From Aminipila luticellarii (GTDB lineage Bacteria; Bacillota; Clostridia; Peptostreptococcales; Anaerovoracaceae), in NCBI RefSeq assembly GCF_004103735.1, contig NZ_CP035281.1, positions 992,001 to 1,056,000 of the forward strand: a stretch of 64,000 nucleotides of DNA, read 5' to 3'. Positions 32,119 through 40,754 of the stretch are shown one piece after another (the first letter of the stretch is position 1; each line of letters starts with the position of its first letter). Under the pieces are notes generated by a model. It was not told the DNA's origin. It searched no databases and was given only the letters and a program-made list of their open reading frames with translations. The translations under genes were made by a program, and so were the position numbers.

Positions 32119-33465
32119 TTATACTAAACCTTGAGACATCATGGCATCGGCGACCTTCTGGAAACCGGCAATATTTGCACCGGCTACCAGGTCATACTTG
32201 TCGTAGTATTTCTGGGAAGCCTCAGCACAAGCCTTATGGATGCCCACCATAATGTTGTGGAGCTGTTCATAGACCTGCTCTGTTGTAAATACCGTATGTC
32301 CGGCATTTTGCCCCATCTCAATACAAGAGGTAGCTACGCCGCCGGCATTGGCTGCTTTGGAAGGACCGACGATGATTCCGCCCTCCTGCATGATTTTGAT
32401 CGCTTCATTGGTGGAGGACATATTGGAACCCTCACAGACAAATTTAACGCCGTTTTTAACGAATGTTTCAGCATCTTCTTTATGTATTTCGTTCTGAGTC
32501 GCACAAGGAATATAGAGATCGGCCTGAACCCCCCAAGGCTTTTCGCCCGGGAAGAATTTAGCCCCCGGGAATTTATCCGCATAAGGTGCACAGACATTTT
32601 TACCGGATCCGCGCAGTTCAAGCAGACAAGCAATTTTTTCATCGGTGTTGATTCCGGCTTCATCCAGAATATATCCGTCCGGACCGGAAATCGTGATCAA
32701 TTTAGCTCCTAAATCTCTTAACTTTATGGCAGTGCCCCAGGATACGTTTCCGAAACCTGAGATGGCAACTGTTTTGTCCTTTAAATTTTCTCCGTTGGCC
32801 TTTAACATTTCCTCGGCATACCATACGATACCGAATCCGGTGGCTTCCGTTCTACCCAGACAACCGCCGTAGGATAAGCCTTTACCGGTTAAAACGCCTT
32901 CAAATCTATTTACAATTCTCTTATATTGACCGTACATGTAACCAATTTCTCTTGCACCAACGCCAAGGTCACCGGCAGGGACATCGGTTTCCGAGCCAAT
33001 ATGTCTGTATAATTCTGTCATAAAGGCCTGACAGAATCTCATAATTTCAGCATCAGATTTTCCGTTTGGATCAAAGTCTGATCCGCCTTTACCTCCACCG
33101 ATAGGCAGACCGGTCAGGCTGTTTTTAAAAATCTGTTCAAAGCCCAAAAATTTAATGATTCCGGGATACACGCTGGGTGCAAATCTCAAACCGCCTTTGT
33201 AAGGTCCGATCGCACTGTTGAACTGGTATCTGTACCCTTTGTTCACGTGCACCTTGCCGGCGTCATCCGTCCACACAACTCTGAAAGTGACTCCTCTTTC
33301 GGGTTCCACTAATCTTTCAAGAAGACCGGCAGCCTCGTATTCCGGATGTTGTTCCATAACAGGTTTTAACGAAGAAAGCACTTCTTCAACAGTCTGATGA
33401 AACTCGGTTTCGCCAGGGTTATTTTTGATACACTGAGCGATAACTCTTTCAACATAATTTGACAT
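32119..33465 (-). CDS. gdhA: NADP-specific glutamate dehydrogenase
   Basis: The 448-residue protein has the length and motifs of the hexameric NADP-type enzyme: GGGKGGSDFDPNGKSDAEIMRFCQAFM with the catalytic Lys, GDLGVGAREIGYMYGQYKR, and the Rossmann loop AISGFGNVSWGTAIKL. It links ammonium and 2-oxoglutarate to glutamate and can run in either direction in fermenters. GGAG precedes the ATG. It is convergent with pyc and divergent from the 1623-residue gene. Confidence 0.98.
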   Translation of the reverse strand: MSNYVERVIAQCIKNNPGETEFHQTVEEVLSSLKPVMEQHPEYEAAGLLERLVEPERGVTFRVVWTDDAGKVHVNKGYRYQFNSAIGPYKGGLRFAPSVYPGIIKFLGFEQIFKNSLTGLPIGGGKGGSDFDPNGKSDAEIMRFCQAFMTELYRHIGSETDVPAGDLGVGAREIGYMYGQYKRIVNRFEGVLTGKGLSYGGCLGRTEATGFGIVWYAEEMLKANGENLKDKTVAISGFGNVSWGTAIKLRDLGAKLITISGPDGYILDEAGINTDEKIACLLELRGSGKNVCAPYADKFPGAKFFPGEKPWGVQADLYIPCATQNEIHKEDAETFVKNGVKFVCEGSNMSSTNEAIKIMQEGGIIVGPSKAANAGGVATSCIEMGQNAGHTVFTTEQVYEQLHNIMVGIHKACAEASQKYYDKYDLVAGANIAGFQKVADAMMSQGLV

Positions 33466-33742: not shown

Positions 33743-36700
33743 ATGATGTATAAAAAAGCAGTGACAGAGATATACAGGCAGCTGGAAAAATCCTTGACGG
33801 ACAGAGATTTTCTAAAAGAGGCGGATGTGCCAAAGAAGATAATGGTCAAGTTATTACGGGATCAGAACTGGCAGGCACGCATTGCAGAGCTTCTTTCCTT
33901 AGAGAAAATGACCTGTACAGCCATAGCAGAAGCCAGCCGTTCCACGATTTCCGCTCTGGATACGGAACCGGAAGAGGGGTGGCTTGAATGCATAAAAAAC
34001 AATACGATAGAAAGATTATTTCCTACGGGAACGAGAGAAGAAAAAAGAGCAGGAACGGATATGCTTCTTCGCATCATCCGTATATTTATTCAATGGCAGA
34101 ACGCAAACAGGGCATTTGATCCTTCTCAAAATATAGAATTACTGGCGGAGGAAGAATTTAAATCGTGCCCGGTAAGGGATGAATATATGAAGTTCATCCG
34201 ATTTTGGAATGATTCTTACATTTACGAATTTATGCTGATTTTTAAAGAGCTGACCTCCTTTAATACGGTGGGCCATATAGCCGGCGTTCATTTTGTGGCG
34301 ATGCATATAGCAAGGCAGCTTAAGAAGCTGGGCATGCCCATTGATATGGCTCTTGTTTCGGGTGCGGCTGCCGGACATGATCTGGGAAAGTATGGATGTA
34401 AGCCTCATGAAACAGAAAAAATTCCTTACCTGCACTATTATTATTCCGACCAGCTGTTTAAAGAAAATGGTATGCCCACCATCGCTCATATTGCGGCCAA
34501 TCATTCCACGTGGGATCTGGAGCTGGAGAATCTTTCAGTGGAATCGCTGGTATTGATTTATGCCGATTTTAGAGTCAAGAGCAGCAGAGATAAGGATGGG
34601 GATGAAATCGTGCATTTTTATTCCTTGGAAGAGTCTTTTGATATTATTCTTAACAAGCTGGATCATGTGAATGAAGAAAAAAGCAGACGATATATCCGGG
34701 TATATTCCAAGCTCAGTGATTTTGAGAAATACATGAAGGACATAGGTATTTCTGTGGATTTAAATTCCAATTGCGTTTTAAAAGCAGATCAGAAAGGGGA
34801 ATCCCTCTTAAATACACAGCAGACCATAGCAAAATTAAAGTTTCTTGCCATCGAACACAACATAACCTTGATGAGCCATTTAAACAATGATATTTCTTTT
34901 GCAAATCTTTTGGAAAAGGCTAGAAGTGAAAAGCAATGGAAAAGCATTCGGGCATATTTGAATATTTTTAGTGAATATTCCACGTACATGACGCAGAAGC
35001 AAAAATTATATACCTTGCATTTTCTGTATGAACTGCTTATGCACAGAGAGGGCGATATAAGAAGACAGGCCGCAGGTATTATGGCGGCCATCATCGTGAA
35101 CTATGACGAGGACTTCCGAAAGGAACTTCCGGAGGATGCCCATGTGGATTCTAAAGAAATGACCGCACTGGAGCTGTGGAAACAATTCATAGAACAAATT
35201 ATTTTTCCGGATTATAAAGTGACAGAACAGCACAAGCGGTGGATTCGATACAGCCTAAAGACGCTTATGACTATCATGCTTGAAAAATGCAGAACAGAGG
35301 TAGAGAGACAGCAATATCTGGATGTGTTCTTCTCCCATTTTCAAAACAGGCGTATGGAAGATGGTTCAGCTTTTATGATGCTGGCTACGGCTTTAGTTGT
35401 TCCCCTTGGAATCTACAGCAAGGAAAGTATGATACGTTTGATGACCTTTGCCGGCGAAATGTCTGAGAGGGACTCCTTAGAAATTAAAATAGCCGCTTTA
35501 AGATGTGCAAAGTATGTGGCAGCGGAATGCGAAGATCCTTGCGTGATAGAAAAAATAAAGCCTTCTATCGTGCAAATCATGGAAGGTGTGCATGAAGACC
35601 GGATATCTGTGGCTTATCTCAAATATAAAATTTTATCTGCTTTAGGAGAATATACGAAAGAGAAATGCCTGTATGAAGAAAAATTATATAAAGAAAATCA
35701 GGTGGAGTCTGATTTATATCTGGAAAATCTAAAAATAGATACACCGTGGGTCATCAAAGCAGTGAATATAGAGTTTTTGCTGGATAAACTAAACCGGGGC
35801 ATGTACGAGGAAAAGCTTCATATTGCCACGCATTTTTCTAATCTGGTCAAAGTCAGTGAACGAATTACCGTGAGACACAGTGCGGGCAAAGGGTTATTAC
35901 AGGTCATAAAGCTTTTGTCTTTGGATCAGAGAAATGAGATCATCATCGAAATGACGAAGGGCTTGGAAATTGGGGAATACCAGTTTTCAAAATATATACC
36001 GGAGTATTTGGGCGAGCTGGCTATGTATCTGCATCCACGTGAACTGGATGAACTGTTAGGGGATTTAAAGAAGCTTTCAGACAGTACAAATCAGCGGATT
36101 GCTTCTGTTGCGCTGGATACGCTGGGCGTTATGATCAAGAAATATCCGGGCTATGGGAAGCGGTTCGAGGAAGCAGCTGAAATCTATGAAAAGCGCAGAG
36201 AACTGATGATTGGTATCCTTCTCAGAGGGTTTGCCAATTATGATGAAATAATCAGTCAGGAGGCCTTTCTGGTGATTGGACAGAGCATTTTTGGCAGCGG
36301 GGAGTTGTCCCTTCAGGACAAACGGACTGTCTTTGAACAGACCTATAAAAAAATAGTGACTCTTATAGCAGATAAAAAAGAAAATGAACTTTCCTTTTAC
36401 AACAATGCCGCAGCCTTAAATCATATCTACCGATTTATTACGGATTATCTGATGCAGAATGAAAGCTTTGATTTCGCGGATCCTTCTAAGGTGGCTTTTT
36501 TCCCGGGTACGTTTGATCCATTCTCCCTCAGTCATAAGGGAATCGTGCAGGAAATCAAGAAGCTGGGATTTGAAGTGTATTTGGCTTTGGATGAGTTTTC
36601 CTGGTCCAAAAGAACACAGCCCCGCATGATACGAAAACAGATTGTCAGCATGTCTGTAGCGGACGAAAGCGGCGTGTATATTTTTCCGGACCATATCTCC

Positions 36701-38614
36701 GTAAACCTTGCTAATCCTGCTGATTTAAGGCGGTTGAAAAAGATATTCGCAGATAAGGATTTATATATGGTGGTAGGAAGTGATGTAATCGCCCATGCCT
36801 CTTCTTACAAAAAATCACCGGAACCGGATTCTATACACCATATGAATCACATCGTATTTAAAAGAGACAGTGAGGTGGAAGGCTCCGCAGAAGCGAACGA
36901 TTCATCCCATTCAGTCAATCCGATTCAAGGTGCTGTCATTGAGTTGAAGCTTCCGGTTCATCTGGAGGACATCAGTTCTACCAGAATCAGAGAAAATATA
37001 GATAATGATCGGGACATTTCCAATTTAATTGATACGGTGGCGCAAAACTATATTTATAGGAATAGTCTGTATCTGAGGGAACCGCAATACAAAAGCGTCA
37101 TACGATCCTCTTCCATTATTCTTGAGGTGATCAAGCATGATAATGCAGAAATCTTTTGTGCTGTCAGTGCAGCAATGGGAGGCCTTTCAGCCATTAAGGA
37201 CAGTCTGTCGGATTATGTGGAAAATAAAGAGGTCACCGCGATGGTTATAAAAAATGGAAGCGATTATGACCGGGTCCTGGGGGTCGTTTTATTTCATGAG
37301 CTGGATACGGTAAATTTATATAGAGAATTTCACCAGTCAGAAGCAGCCTCTTATATCAGAGAGCATTCCTCCGGAAAAGTTGCCGTTTTGGGAGCACTCC
37401 TTGTCAGTGCGGATAGTAAGATCGACGATTTGGAGCAGATCCTTTTGACGGAAGCTCTTGCCGACTGTCTGAGAACGGGCTTTACGTATGCGGTATACAA
37501 TCCCATATTTTCAAAATCGGAGGCCTACAGCCAGAGGGTAGAAGCGGTAATGCGCCGTCAGGGATTTTTCAACATATCGGAGGATTTGAACGGCTCGGCT
37601 ATTTATTTTGTCGACATGCAATCGCCGGTCATCTTATTTGAAAATATGGAAATGAGAATAAAAAGTCCTTTTGATACAAACCAAAGGATTTTACAAGTGT
37701 TAAAGCAGGCACATATCAATATGCAGAATTCCCTGACTCAGATTTATAAGGGAAGTCTTGTGCTGTCTTTCAACTCGGGGATTATGCACCATCGATTGGT
37801 AGACATGATCACGGCGGTAAACGGCGTTTCAAGAGAGCATACAAAAATTCGAAGGTTAGGGCCATACATGTGTGTGCCTTTTGGAAAAATTTTGGATGGC
37901 AAAGCCGTACCAAATACCGTTACAAAAACCCTTCATACGGAAAAAATTTTTGATACGCAGGTGAGAAGCTTTAAAATTAAGGAATTTCCAAATTATACAA
38001 CCCTTGAAAATCAGATCGGTACCATAGAATCCTTTCATCGGCCTGTGCTGTTGGTAGATGACATGCTGCATAAGGGATATCGGCTGAAGGAGTTAGATCC
38101 CATTTTTAAAAAGACAGATATCCAGGTAGAGAAAATCATTGTAGGCGTTCTTTCCGGCAAGGGAAAGGATTTGATGGCGATTCAGGGAAGAAACGTAGAC
38201 AGCGCTTACTTTATCCCCCACCTCAGAACTTGGTTCATAGAGGATGCCATGTATCCGTTTTTAGGAGGGGACAGCGTAGAAAGAGAATATTCTTTTACCG
38301 GAAATTTGATTCCGTCTGTCAATATGATACTGCCCTATGTACTGCCGGCATTTTTGGCCGGAGAAGATAGGAGGGCGGTCTTTACATTTTCACTGACCTG
38401 CTTAAAAAATGCTGAAAAGATTCTGAAAGTGCTGGAGGAAGAGTTTCAAAGAACTTTTGAGAAAAATTTGACCTTGAATAGGCTTGGAGAGGTCATTTAT
38501 TCCCCAAGGTGTCCGGACAAGGGATATTGCATCGGGTATGATGAAAATCTGGCCCCTTCCGTATATGTATCCAATGATATTGAAAAACTAATGCGATTAA
38601 AAAATATGGTTTAA
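33743..38614 (+). CDS. 1623-residue multidomain protein: HD domain, helical repeats, NadD-like nucleotidyltransferase, GNAT-like and PRTase-like regions
   Basis: No signal peptide or membrane segment is visible, so this is a large cytoplasmic protein. Residues about 165-300 form an HD phosphohydrolase domain: His178, His212-Asp213 in AAGHDLGKYG, His249/His254 in HIAANHSTWD and Asp275. Residues about 370-900 are helical, HEAT-like repeats. At 916 a NadD-type cytidylyl/adenylyltransferase begins with FFPGTFDPFSLSH (HxGH variant SLSH) and ends with ISSTRIREN (1077-1085), the ATP-site ISxTxIR motif. Residues about 1115-1280 look like an acetyltransferase fold. The C-terminus has a phosphoribosyltransferase-like PRPP loop VLLVDDMLHKGYR (1435-1447). 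Domains usually found separately in NAD and nucleotide metabolism are fused here. Function unknown; boundaries are estimates by eye. Confidence 0.75.
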   Translation: MMYKKAVTEIYRQLEKSLTDRDFLKEADVPKKIMVKLLRDQNWQARIAELLSLEKMTCTAIAEASRSTISALDTEPEEGWLECIKNNTIERLFPTGTREEKRAGTDMLLRIIRIFIQWQNANRAFDPSQNIELLAEEEFKSCPVRDEYMKFIRFWNDSYIYEFMLIFKELTSFNTVGHIAGVHFVAMHIARQLKKLGMPIDMALVSGAAAGHDLGKYGCKPHETEKIPYLHYYYSDQLFKENGMPTIAHIAANHSTWDLELENLSVESLVLIYADFRVKSSRDKDGDEIVHFYSLEESFDIILNKLDHVNEEKSRRYIRVYSKLSDFEKYMKDIGISVDLNSNCVLKADQKGESLLNTQQTIAKLKFLAIEHNITLMSHLNNDISFANLLEKARSEKQWKSIRAYLNIFSEYSTYMTQKQKLYTLHFLYELLMHREGDIRRQAAGIMAAIIVNYDEDFRKELPEDAHVDSKEMTALELWKQFIEQIIFPDYKVTEQHKRWIRYSLKTLMTIMLEKCRTEVERQQYLDVFFSHFQNRRMEDGSAFMMLATALVVPLGIYSKESMIRLMTFAGEMSERDSLEIKIAALRCAKYVAAECEDPCVIEKIKPSIVQIMEGVHEDRISVAYLKYKILSALGEYTKEKCLYEEKLYKENQVESDLYLENLKIDTPWVIKAVNIEFLLDKLNRGMYEEKLHIATHFSNLVKVSERITVRHSAGKGLLQVIKLLSLDQRNEIIIEMTKGLEIGEYQFSKYIPEYLGELAMYLHPRELDELLGDLKKLSDSTNQRIASVALDTLGVMIKKYPGYGKRFEEAAEIYEKRRELMIGILLRGFANYDEIISQEAFLVIGQSIFGSGELSLQDKRTVFEQTYKKIVTLIADKKENELSFYNNAAALNHIYRFITDYLMQNESFDFADPSKVAFFPGTFDPFSLSHKGIVQEIKKLGFEVYLALDEFSWSKRTQPRMIRKQIVSMSVADESGVYIFPDHISVNLANPADLRRLKKIFADKDLYMVVGSDVIAHASSYKKSPEPDSIHHMNHIVFKRDSEVEGSAEANDSSHSVNPIQGAVIELKLPVHLEDISSTRIRENIDNDRDISNLIDTVAQNYIYRNSLYLREPQYKSVIRSSSIILEVIKHDNAEIFCAVSAAMGGLSAIKDSLSDYVENKEVTAMVIKNGSDYDRVLGVVLFHELDTVNLYREFHQSEAASYIREHSSGKVAVLGALLVSADSKIDDLEQILLTEALADCLRTGFTYAVYNPIFSKSEAYSQRVEAVMRRQGFFNISEDLNGSAIYFVDMQSPVILFENMEMRIKSPFDTNQRILQVLKQAHINMQNSLTQIYKGSLVLSFNSGIMHHRLVDMITAVNGVSREHTKIRRLGPYMCVPFGKILDGKAVPNTVTKTLHTEKIFDTQVRSFKIKEFPNYTTLENQIGTIESFHRPVLLVDDMLHKGYRLKELDPIFKKTDIQVEKIIVGVLSGKGKDLMAIQGRNVDSAYFIPHLRTWFIEDAMYPFLGGDSVEREYSFTGNLIPSVNMILPYVLPAFLAGEDRRAVFTFSLTCLKNAEKILKVLEEEFQRTFEKNLTLNRLGEVIYSPRCPDKGYCIGYDENLAPSVYVSNDIEKLMRLKNMV

Positions 38615-38640
38615 AAAGAACCGGATGAGGAAGTGTAAAG

Positions 38641-39606
38641 GTGTACAGATTAACTGATTTGGATTCCCAAGCTGAAAGGACAGGATATATGCCGTTTTCG
38701 TTTCAGCATAAAAAGAGAGTAAATCTGCTTGCTTTAGGAGATGTGGGCAGTACGCTCCTGACCGGATTAAAGCTGATGGGGGCGGATGTTATTGAATGCA
38801 TAGGGATTTACGACATGAACACTGACCTGTGCCGAAGATATGAAATGGAAATAAATCAGATTACATTCCCGCTTGATCCAAGGAAGCTTCCGGAGGTTCG
38901 GAGCATTACCGCAGAAGAGCTGTTTCATTGTGATCTGTTCATCTTTTGTGCGGCAAAAGCGGTGCCGCCCCTAAATGAAAAAGTGCAGGATGTGCGAATG
39001 GCTCAGTTTGCAGGCAATAAAAAAATAGTGGAACAATATGCAAGGATGGCGGCAGATAAAAATTTCAAAGGATTATTTGCCGTTCTGTCAGATCCGGTGG
39101 ATCCGCTGTGCAAGGCAGCCTGGCTGGCCGCAGGAGGCAGACTGTGCGCCGAACAGATACAGGGATTTGGTCTGGGAGTCATGAACAGCAGAGCTATCTA
39201 TTATGCAAAAAGGGAGGAACGGTTCAGACGCTATTTGAGCGAAGGCAGAGCTTTCGGACCGCATGGACAGGATCTGGTTCTTGCAGACAGTGTACAGGAT
39301 TACGATGATGAGTTATCCCGGGAGTTGACCAGATTAACGATTGATGCCAATACAGAGGTCAGAGAGCTTGGTTTTAAACCTTATATAGCGCCGGCTTTGT
39401 CCTCAGGGGCTATTTCCCTGCTGCTCACTTTGCGGGGAGAATGGCATTACAGTTCAAACTTTATGGGAAGGAGCAAGGAGGGAGCCTTCATAGGTGCGTT
39501 AAATCGCATGACGGAGCGGGGGACCCAATGGGAGGATACGTTCCTGCCGGAGCCTCTATTCTTGCGGATAAAAAATGCATATGATAACCTAAAAACTTTT
39601 ATTTGA
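38641..39606 (+). CDS. Divergent lactate/malate dehydrogenase superfamily protein
   Basis: Start GTG at 38641 with GAGGAAG upstream, 26 bases after the giant gene. The 321-residue protein has the NAD loop ALGDVGSTLLTGLKLMG (residues about 31-47), FAVLSDPVDPLCKAAW (equivalent to VSNPVD), GVMNSRAIYYAKRE (equivalent to the substrate-binding DSARFR) and FGPHGQDLVL with the catalytic His in place of GEHGDS. So the catalytic His/Arg framework seems kept, but the substrate loop is quite unlike ordinary enzymes. Substrate unknown. It is surely in an operon with the giant protein and the flavoprotein. Confidence 0.75.
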   Translation: MYRLTDLDSQAERTGYMPFSFQHKKRVNLLALGDVGSTLLTGLKLMGADVIECIGIYDMNTDLCRRYEMEINQITFPLDPRKLPEVRSITAEELFHCDLFIFCAAKAVPPLNEKVQDVRMAQFAGNKKIVEQYARMAADKNFKGLFAVLSDPVDPLCKAAWLAAGGRLCAEQIQGFGLGVMNSRAIYYAKREERFRRYLSEGRAFGPHGQDLVLADSVQDYDDELSRELTRLTIDANTEVRELGFKPYIAPALSSGAISLLLTLRGEWHYSSNFMGRSKEGAFIGALNRMTERGTQWEDTFLPEPLFLRIKNAYDNLKTFI

Positions 39607-39671
39607 AAACTCGCTATCAATTTTGCCGCAGTGTTAAAGCACCGGACAGAATGCGGAAGGAGGCGGACAGA

Positions 39672-40754
39672 ATGTGTATGGAGAAGGATGACCTGGTATT
39701 GATCAAGCCTTATTGCAGAGAGAAGAATAAAGCCGGGAGGTTGAGGGCTATATTGGCTAAAAGCTTAGAGGGATATACCTTTGATACGATTGCTACAGTA
39801 GAAGAATTTGAAGAATATGATCTGACCAATAAGAGGATCCTCTTTGCTGTGTCCCTGGGAGAATCCGGCATCAATCTGGAATGGTATGCCATTTTAAAAA
39901 AAATCAGAAAAAGCGGATTGTGCTTTCAGGGAAGCATCGGCGGAATTCTTGTGGACGGAAACAGTGAGCTCTATACCAAATCCTTTGCCAGAGAACTGGT
40001 CCTGAGTGCCAATCTGGCGGGCTGTACCTTTGTGGGAAGGCCTCTTGTAGAAGGTACAAGATCTTTGCAGAATTTTAATATTGCGGCGAAGAATCTGGAA
40101 ACAGATAACATGGGGGCTTATATGGAGTCCGGTCATGAATTGGTAAAAAGGGTGATGACATTTGATTACCTTAAAAAAGATCATCCCAAAATCTTGATGC
40201 TTCATGCAGGAAATAAAAGAATTTCCAATAGTCTGCTCTTATGGGAAAAGGTAAAGGGGCATTTAAAAGGCTGCGATATAAAGGAAATTTCTTTGCTCAA
40301 CGGGACGGTGGTAGACTGTATCGGATGTCCATATGGTCAATGTCTGCACTTTGGCGAAAATAATACCTGCTTTTATGGAGGAATCATATCGGATCAAGTT
40401 TATCCGGCTATTTTAGAGGCAGATACGTTGCTGCTTGTATGTCCGAATTATAATGATGCGGTCAGTGCCAATATTGCCGCCTTTATTAATCGGCTGACGG
40501 CTTTATTTATGACCCATAAATTTTATGAAAAAGCATTGTTTGGTATCATTGTATCGGGATATAGCGGGGGTGACATCGTCGCCCAGCAGCTGATCAGTTC
40601 TCTCAACATGAATAAGACCTTTTATCTGCCGGCCGGTTTTGTCCTGATGGAAACTGCCAATAACCCGGGGACGGTTTTGGACATTCCGGGAATCGAAGAG
40701 AGGGCGGCGGCCTTTGCCAACCACATTTTAATAAATAAAACGTTAAAAGAATAA
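39672..40754 (+). CDS. Flavodoxin-fold NAD(P)H-dependent FMN reductase-like protein
   Basis: I start at ATG 39672 because AAGGAGG precedes it; an upstream TTG overlapping the previous stop is open but has no ribosome site. The 360-residue protein has an N-terminal domain (about 1-170) that I do not recognise, then an FMN reductase/iron-sulphur-flavoprotein domain: HAGNKRISNSLLLWEKV, DCIGCPYGQCLHFGENNTC (four Cys, possible FeS or structural) and LLLVCPNYNDAVSANIAAFINRL. A redox partner for the two upstream genes is inferred from their order and orientation. Confidence 0.75.
   Translation: MCMEKDDLVLIKPYCREKNKAGRLRAILAKSLEGYTFDTIATVEEFEEYDLTNKRILFAVSLGESGINLEWYAILKKIRKSGLCFQGSIGGILVDGNSELYTKSFARELVLSANLAGCTFVGRPLVEGTRSLQNFNIAAKNLETDNMGAYMESGHELVKRVMTFDYLKKDHPKILMLHAGNKRISNSLLLWEKVKGHLKGCDIKEISLLNGTVVDCIGCPYGQCLHFGENNTCFYGGIISDQVYPAILEADTLLLVCPNYNDAVSANIAAFINRLTALFMTHKFYEKALFGIIVSGYSGGDIVAQQLISSLNMNKTFYLPAGFVLMETANNPGTVLDIPGIEERAAAFANHILINKTLKE

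Follow-up and report, generated by a model that had tools for sequence, protein, structure and literature searches.

What a clostridium does with a single polypeptide that combines an HD-type metal site, a NadD-like nucleotidyltransferase and a phosphoribosyltransferase (PRTase)-like part is the question raised by a locus of Aminipila luticellarii. The window analysed here is the whole 64,000-nucleotide stretch at positions 992,001–1,056,000 of contig NZ_CP035281.1, and the locus lies at window positions 33,743–40,754. It consists of a gene for a 1623-residue multi-domain protein (referred to as the giant), followed by genes for a divergent lactate/malate-dehydrogenase-like protein and a flavoprotein (Table 1). 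A sequence-only reading had suggested that the three genes form an operon acting on a pyridine or other nucleotide-linked compound. The answer reached here, which we regard as plausible though somewhat short of probable, is that the three genes form a pathway of their own, devoted to some nucleotide-linked compound and standing beside rather than inside nicotinamide adenine dinucleotide (NAD) synthesis.

The genomic association of the three genes is one line of evidence for this reading. Among 61 related genomes, 26 encode the giant (E-value 1.9e-70 or better), and nine others gave only weak matches to its NadD-like part. The dehydrogenase was found in the same 26 genomes and in no others. The flavoprotein was strong in 24 of the 26, the exceptions being G029 (fragmentary match at the end of a contig) and G058 (none found), and no genome has a strong flavoprotein without the giant. 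The joint conservation expected from the sequence-only reading was therefore observed. In public genome contigs, at least 553 of 591 pattern-matched stretches (stretches, not genomes) encode a relative. Of 80 named public loci, 76 contain the dehydrogenase and 71 the flavoprotein; where the contig leaves enough room downstream, the former follows in 72 of 73 loci (at least 1.5 kb) and the latter in 65 of 66 (3 kb). No other neighbouring family occurs in more than 14 of the 80. Across 45 loci the distances between the proteins are correlated (r 0.79 and 0.85), with none of 2000 permutations giving values as high.

The carriers are scattered. In a broad phylum sample, the giant was found in 8 of 398 genomes including that of the window, and the PRTase-like domain was found in the same eight only, within frames of 1573–1667 residues. 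Among the matches listed, the carriers include Anaerovorax, Anaerotignum, Sedimentibacter, Emergencia, Hornefia, Oscillibacter and Pseudoflavonifractor, and the closest is Clostridium aminobutyricum (63%). The flavoprotein gene lies on the other strand in L028 and L100. L028 is a metagenome bin labelled Spirochaetes with the operon at approximately 49% identity, for which transfer and misbinning are both possible.

The giant was folded with AlphaFold as two halves, using alignments of 71 and 70 rows. Residues 1–885 gave a mean predicted local distance difference test score (pLDDT) of 90.2 and a predicted template modelling score (pTM) of 0.84, and residues 880–1623 gave 87.9 and 0.87, respectively. 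Residue counts out of 80 refer to the window protein and 79 relatives that are 37–100% identical to it. Of 85 picks below 85% identity, 79 were kept; the final six (L043, L088, L085, L069, L097 and L071), whose longest open reading frame (ORF) is not the giant, were dropped, and the short ORFs L007, L015 and L078 were removed ahead of the big alignment. The domain profiles have 47 rows and the dehydrogenase profile 19. The motifs of the giant were found at the positions read earlier, namely His178, His212-Asp213, Asp275, GTFDPFSLSH (922–931), ISSTRIR (1077–1083) and VLLVDDMLHKG (1435–1445). Of the two outcomes that had been named as contrary to the sequence-only reading, absence of the folds from the predictions and lack of joint conservation of the three genes, neither occurred.

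Table 1 Features of the three-gene locus in window coordinates; residue ranges refer to the giant.
Feature	Residues or length	Window position	Strand	Basis
Multi-domain giant	1623 residues	33743..38614 (stop included)	+	ORF listing; strong relatives in 26/61 genomes
HD domain, putative ligands H178, H212, D213, H231, H254, D275	141-335	34163..34747	+	Alignment; NF045665
HEAT/ARM-like helical solenoid	358-880	34814..36382	+	AlphaFold model, pLDDT 90; fold search
NadD-like nucleotidyltransferase domain	914-1112	36482..37078	+	PF01467; 3e27_B
GNAT-fold domain without the usual acetyl-CoA loop	1124-1292	37112..37618	+	7ciu_B match
PRTase-like domain, motif VDDMLHKGYR and loop PNTVTKTLHTEK	1302-1623	37646..38611	+	Asp pair; PF00156 weak
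Divergent lactate/malate-dehydrogenase-like protein	321 residues, GTG start	38641..39606	+	PDB profile, best E 2.4e-9
Flavoprotein with FMN_red domain	383 residues as listed, TTG start	39603..40754	+	PF03358; four invariant Cys

The HD site proposed earlier is strictly conserved: each of the six putative metal ligands is identical in 80 of 80 sequences, and the six-residue pattern H..HD..H..H..D, the sequence sign by which dimetal HD sites are recognised according to a review (PMC8177086), is complete in the giant, which suggests a dimetal centre. The Pfam HD score is 20 bits, slightly under the cut-off of 22. YqeK is not the closest family by sequence. The 47 members are nearer to NF045665 (the DVU_1551 family, matched in 47 of 47) and TIGR00295 (40 of 47), and the YqeK model TIGR00488 is not in the 20 families listed for them at E up to 1, where filters may hide weak matches. 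The DVU_1551-family nucleoside triphosphate (NTP) transferase is the best HD match of the giant and likewise joins HD to a nucleotidyltransferase, but the giant matches its HD part only, with the window segment scoring 27.3 bits against a cut-off of 315. The transferase part of that family is of another type than the NadD-like domain of the giant.

The nucleotidyltransferase proposed from the letters alone was supported by both profile and model. The giant passes PF01467 (29 bits against a cut-off of 21), and residues 914–1111 align to the nicotinic acid mononucleotide (NaMN) adenylyltransferase 3e27_B in the Protein Data Bank (PDB) with a Z-score of 16.8 and a root mean square deviation (rmsd) of 2.5 over 175 residues. 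The fold, the GTFDP start, GxD and ISSTxIR are shared with NadD, and H931, G1012, D1014, S1079, I1082 and R1083 are invariant in 80 of 80 sequences. In contrast, the match to the NadD model TIGR00482 (43.1 bits, E 4.6e-11) is under its curated cut-off of 112.45 bits, and the motif HxGH and the Trp after GxD, which we take to be hallmarks of NadD, are replaced. At the place of HxGH (SLSH in the window protein), position 928 is Ser in 59 and Thr in 21 sequences, followed by Leu, mostly Ser or Gly, and His. Position 1022 is Tyr in 79 of 80, where the NadD of the same genome, which carries HFGH and GTDSFLSIELW, has Trp. Moreover, a loop DEFSWSK, with each of its seven positions conserved in at least 78 of 80, occupies the place of PNNVPPH in an aligned E. 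coli NadD chain. The domain is predicted to act as a NadD-type transferase by fold, and lies outside NadD by score and motif. The profile scored engineered E. coli NadD chains (6kg3 and 6kh2) above the wild type, a difference too weak to be used.

The PRTase claim survived in part. A hydrophobic strand with the Asp-Asp motif of phosphoribosyl pyrophosphate (PRPP) binding resembles that of type I PRTases (PF00156): D1439 is present in 80 and D1440 in 79 of 80 sequences, and a Lys/His-rich loop is also conserved. The supporting matches are weak. With E up to 10, the Pfam Pribosyltran model hit 18 of 47 members, the best value being 0.0011, and three PRTase-named entries of a viral fold library were matched with probabilities of 0.84 (UMP synthase), 0.69 (a PRTase-domain protein) and 0.97 (Hpt), weakly and without ranges shown. 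Because the Pfam, viral-library and profile–profile matches are all weak, the domain is called PRTase-like and not PRTase. The PDB fold lists were filled by other domains (NadD and GNAT for the half with the PRTase-like part), and the non-appearance of YqeK or PRTases there is uninformative.

The helical-repeat solenoid proposed earlier was borne out by the model and by the fold search, in which residues 375–885 align to HEAT and ARM solenoids with Z-scores of approximately 12–14, values that are easily attained between helical-repeat proteins; Pfam HEAT was matched in 7 of 18 sequences. As for the segment read as acetyltransferase-like, its GNAT fold was supported by 7ciu_B (Z-score 14.5, rmsd 3.1, 158 residues aligned). 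GNAT enzymes usually have an acetyl-CoA loop of the RxxGxG/A type, and this was not seen at residues 1211–1244 of the 80-row alignment. Conservation is lowest in the GNAT-fold part, where 6 of 178 positions reach 97% or more, and in the N-terminal helical stretch, where none of 140 does, compared with 51 of 195 in the HD domain. An acetyltransferase role is doubtful because this part is poorly conserved and has no such loop.

The two small proteins are recognisable redox proteins with family-specific changes. A profile of the dehydrogenase retrieved lactate dehydrogenase (LDH) and malate dehydrogenase structures from the PDB, and its Pfam score was 21.4 bits against a cut-off of 27. Like these enzymes, it retains the GDVGS Rossmann motif together with R119 (63/63), R184 (62/63) and H208 (61 of 61 with letters), presumably the mobile-loop Arg, the substrate Arg and the catalytic His. 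It differs from them in Met181, found in 63 of 63 sequences at what we take to be the place of the catalytic Asp in the alignment with 4q3n, and in the Asn of SNPVD, which is replaced by Asp in all 63. The retained residues make a hydroxy- or oxo-acid substrate possible, and the catalysis must differ from that of LDH, given the Met and Asp at these two places. An N-terminal part of at least 80 residues is present in 33 of 62 dehydrogenase homologues; it is 22 residues long in the window protein. The flavoprotein passes PF03358 (57.4 bits, gathering score 24), and four Cys residues, identical in 60 of 60 sequences, suggest an iron-sulfur cluster. It resembles NADPH-dependent FMN reductases and iron-sulfur flavoproteins in these respects, but adds an N-terminal half of approximately 170 residues without a Pfam match. 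A PDB sequence search with the flavoprotein gave no relative at E up to 0.1. In C. difficile, the sigma-E-dependent operon CD3638-CD3637 includes an FMN reductase (PMC3789822).

A natural separation of the HD and NadD-like parts was found in genome G059, which has two copies of the giant. L111 (1217 residues, L111:6437-10090) keeps all six HD ligands, whereas its NadD part is shortened and no longer contains the motifs GSD and ISST. L112 (1076 residues, L112:6267-11393) has no HD and a complete NadD-like domain, and only this copy is followed by the dehydrogenase and the flavoprotein. Both copies have the Asp pair and the TK-LH loop of the PRTase-like part. Since the HD and NadD-like sites are kept on separate copies, the arrangement argues that both are in use.

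The relation to NAD metabolism was examined at the genome level. The genome of the window has adjacent NadD and YqeK genes near G000:C1:1374229-1375339 and a NaPRTase gene (E 3.5e-171), and housekeeping NAD synthesis was rejected as the function of the giant because these ordinary genes exist. NadC or NaPRTase was found over cut-off in 22 of the 26 giant-bearing genomes, and neither in G029, G043, G047 and G058. A link with a particular NAD precursor route was rejected: NadC was over cut-off in 10 of the 26 giant-bearing genomes and in 13 of the 35 others, and NaPRTase in 17 of 26 and 30 of 35 (p 0.07). Likewise rejected were a link with sporulation, Spo0A_C (E 1e-31 or better) being present in 14 of 26 and 12 of 35, respectively (p 0.19), and a link with phages or defence. 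For the latter, searches of PHROG and PADLOC at E up to 0.01 gave no match (0 PADLOC families for the three proteins), no phage record was found, and a scan of viral contigs gave no relative.

We infer every reaction, substrate and direction in the pathway proposed. The PRTase-like domain would add a phosphoribosyl group to a small aromatic base (or remove it), and the NadD-like domain would build a dinucleotide by moving a nucleotidyl group from an NTP to the resulting mononucleotide. This dinucleotide, or wrong products, may be cleaved at the putative dimetal HD site, in turnover or proofreading. The HEAT solenoid would keep the sites of the giant together, the GNAT-fold part may be structural or ligand-binding, and the dehydrogenase and flavoprotein would carry out redox reactions that act on the product or make use of it. 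The nearest comparison is the mycoplasma fusion JCVISYN3A_0380, which also places a NadD-fold nucleotidyltransferase and an HD hydrolase in a single chain. In JCVI-Syn3A, according to PMC9426524, the YqeK domain fused to NadD hydrolyses nicotinic acid adenine dinucleotide and its cytosine and uracil analogues, products made by this NadD. The giant differs in having HD first, approximately 580 residues before the NadD-like domain, in its NadD motifs, in the YqeK model not being listed for its HD domain, in having a PRTase-like part, a GNAT-fold part and a pair of redox partners in addition, and in that its genome has separate ordinary NadD and YqeK.

The recognisable folds are all known, as are NadD-HD fusions; no described function for the giant and no described counterpart of the three-gene system were found in the openly licensed literature. 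The giant and its two near-constant redox partners across many clostridial lineages point to an apparently undescribed piece of anaerobe metabolism, for which the G059 split and the motif differences from NadD offer direct experimental handles. If the compound is separate from NAD, it would be a new nucleotide-linked cofactor or metabolite in the biochemistry of gut and sediment clostridia.

Several observations weigh against a dedicated pathway. At the level of the genes, L041:2048-6901 is the sole exception for both partners among the roomy public loci, with downstream genes that look unrelated, and genome G046 has a second full-length giant (1627 residues, L113:8489-13372) with no adjoining dehydrogenase or flavoprotein. 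The correlation of protein distances could stem from shared descent alone, and the redox proteins could serve unrelated chemistry. At the level of the domains, the PRTase-like segment of the window protein scores 11.2 bits where the PF00156 gathering score is 26.3, and no member is over the cut-off. The hhalign probabilities for two PRTase families were 7.8% and 2.8%, with the alignments falling on the PRPP loop, and those for four decoys 0.1–0.7%. Type I PRTases usually have a TGGT-type 5'-phosphate loop, whereas the giant has KGYR. The Ser/Thr that opens the HxGH place of the NadD-like domain is a further departure. Finally, neither Rfam matches nor conserved neighbours gave hints of the substrate.

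Damage control of NAD(P) is an alternative that we consider unlikely. Here HD would cleave faulty NAD-type dinucleotides, the NadD-like and PRTase-like parts would rebuild them, and the redox proteins would reset wrongly reduced forms. Proofreading of NadD products by the YqeK-NadD fusion in JCVI-Syn3A (PMC9426524) offers a precedent, and both a dimetal HD motif and a NadD-like transferase are present. However, the genome already has a NadD-YqeK pair, and the HxGH, Trp and PPH loop of NadD are replaced in the giant. Besides, NAD damage should be universal, yet the giant is patchy among relatives (26 of 61).

Only a modest chance is given to the synthesis or breakdown of a specialised metabolite, in which the nucleotidyl group would serve for activation only and the acceptor part would be modified by the two redox proteins. 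The near-invariant, family-specific DEFSWSK in place of the acceptor loop fits such a role, as do the four invariant Cys of the flavoprotein and the LDH-like protein that keeps the catalytic His and both Arg with Met at the catalytic Asp. Simple activation, however, poorly accounts for the combination of hydrolase and transferase within a single polypeptide, and no transporter, regulator or added biosynthetic gene is conserved by the three genes.

It is quite unlikely that the operon constitutes a NAD-like cofactor system, in which the giant would build an NAD-like dinucleotide with a non-standard base or nucleotide (PRTase-like, then NadD-like) and recycle it (HD), the LDH-like protein would use it and the flavoprotein would recharge it. 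The engineered synthetase for a cytosine analogue of NAD reportedly derives from NadD. Production of that analogue by the engineered enzyme is described in PMC8035330.

Very unlikely is a sensor or regulator, with the giant making and destroying a nucleotide signal and the two small proteins reporting redox state. Known bifunctional signal enzymes do pair synthase and hydrolase sites in one chain, as the giant appears to, and the long HEAT scaffold and degenerate GNAT-fold domain would suit such a role; but the neighbourhood contains no conserved gene for an effector or regulator, Spo0A is not associated and PADLOC gave no match. A housekeeping NaMN adenylyltransferase with fused extras is scarcely credible, as its weak NadD model match stays under the cut-off, the NadD motifs are replaced and true NadD and YqeK genes lie elsewhere in the genome.

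The organisation of the locus agrees with the tight order of the three genes described in the sequence-only reading. The stop codon of the giant is separated from the dehydrogenase ORF by 26 bases, and the flavoprotein ORF as listed overlaps the latter by 4 bases. The true flavoprotein start is probably ATG 39672 or 39678, because homologous ORFs are mostly approximately 350–360 residues. A promoter and terminator scan gave 29 promoter-like sites against 17.1 expected and five terminator-like sites against 6.0 expected. No known RNA element exceeded its Rfam gathering score in the window and six related loci. One record labelled as a plasmid, NZ_CP154629.1 of Acetoanaerobium noterae (L146), holds a giant gene in a stretch without annotated features; its size of 2.63 Mb suggests a mislabelled chromosome, and a plasmid link, resting on this single replicon, was rejected. 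Upstream of the operon, a divergent glutamate dehydrogenase gene lies at window positions 32119-33465, and 13 of the 80 public loci have homologues in the vicinity of the operon, a proximity that probably reflects local synteny.

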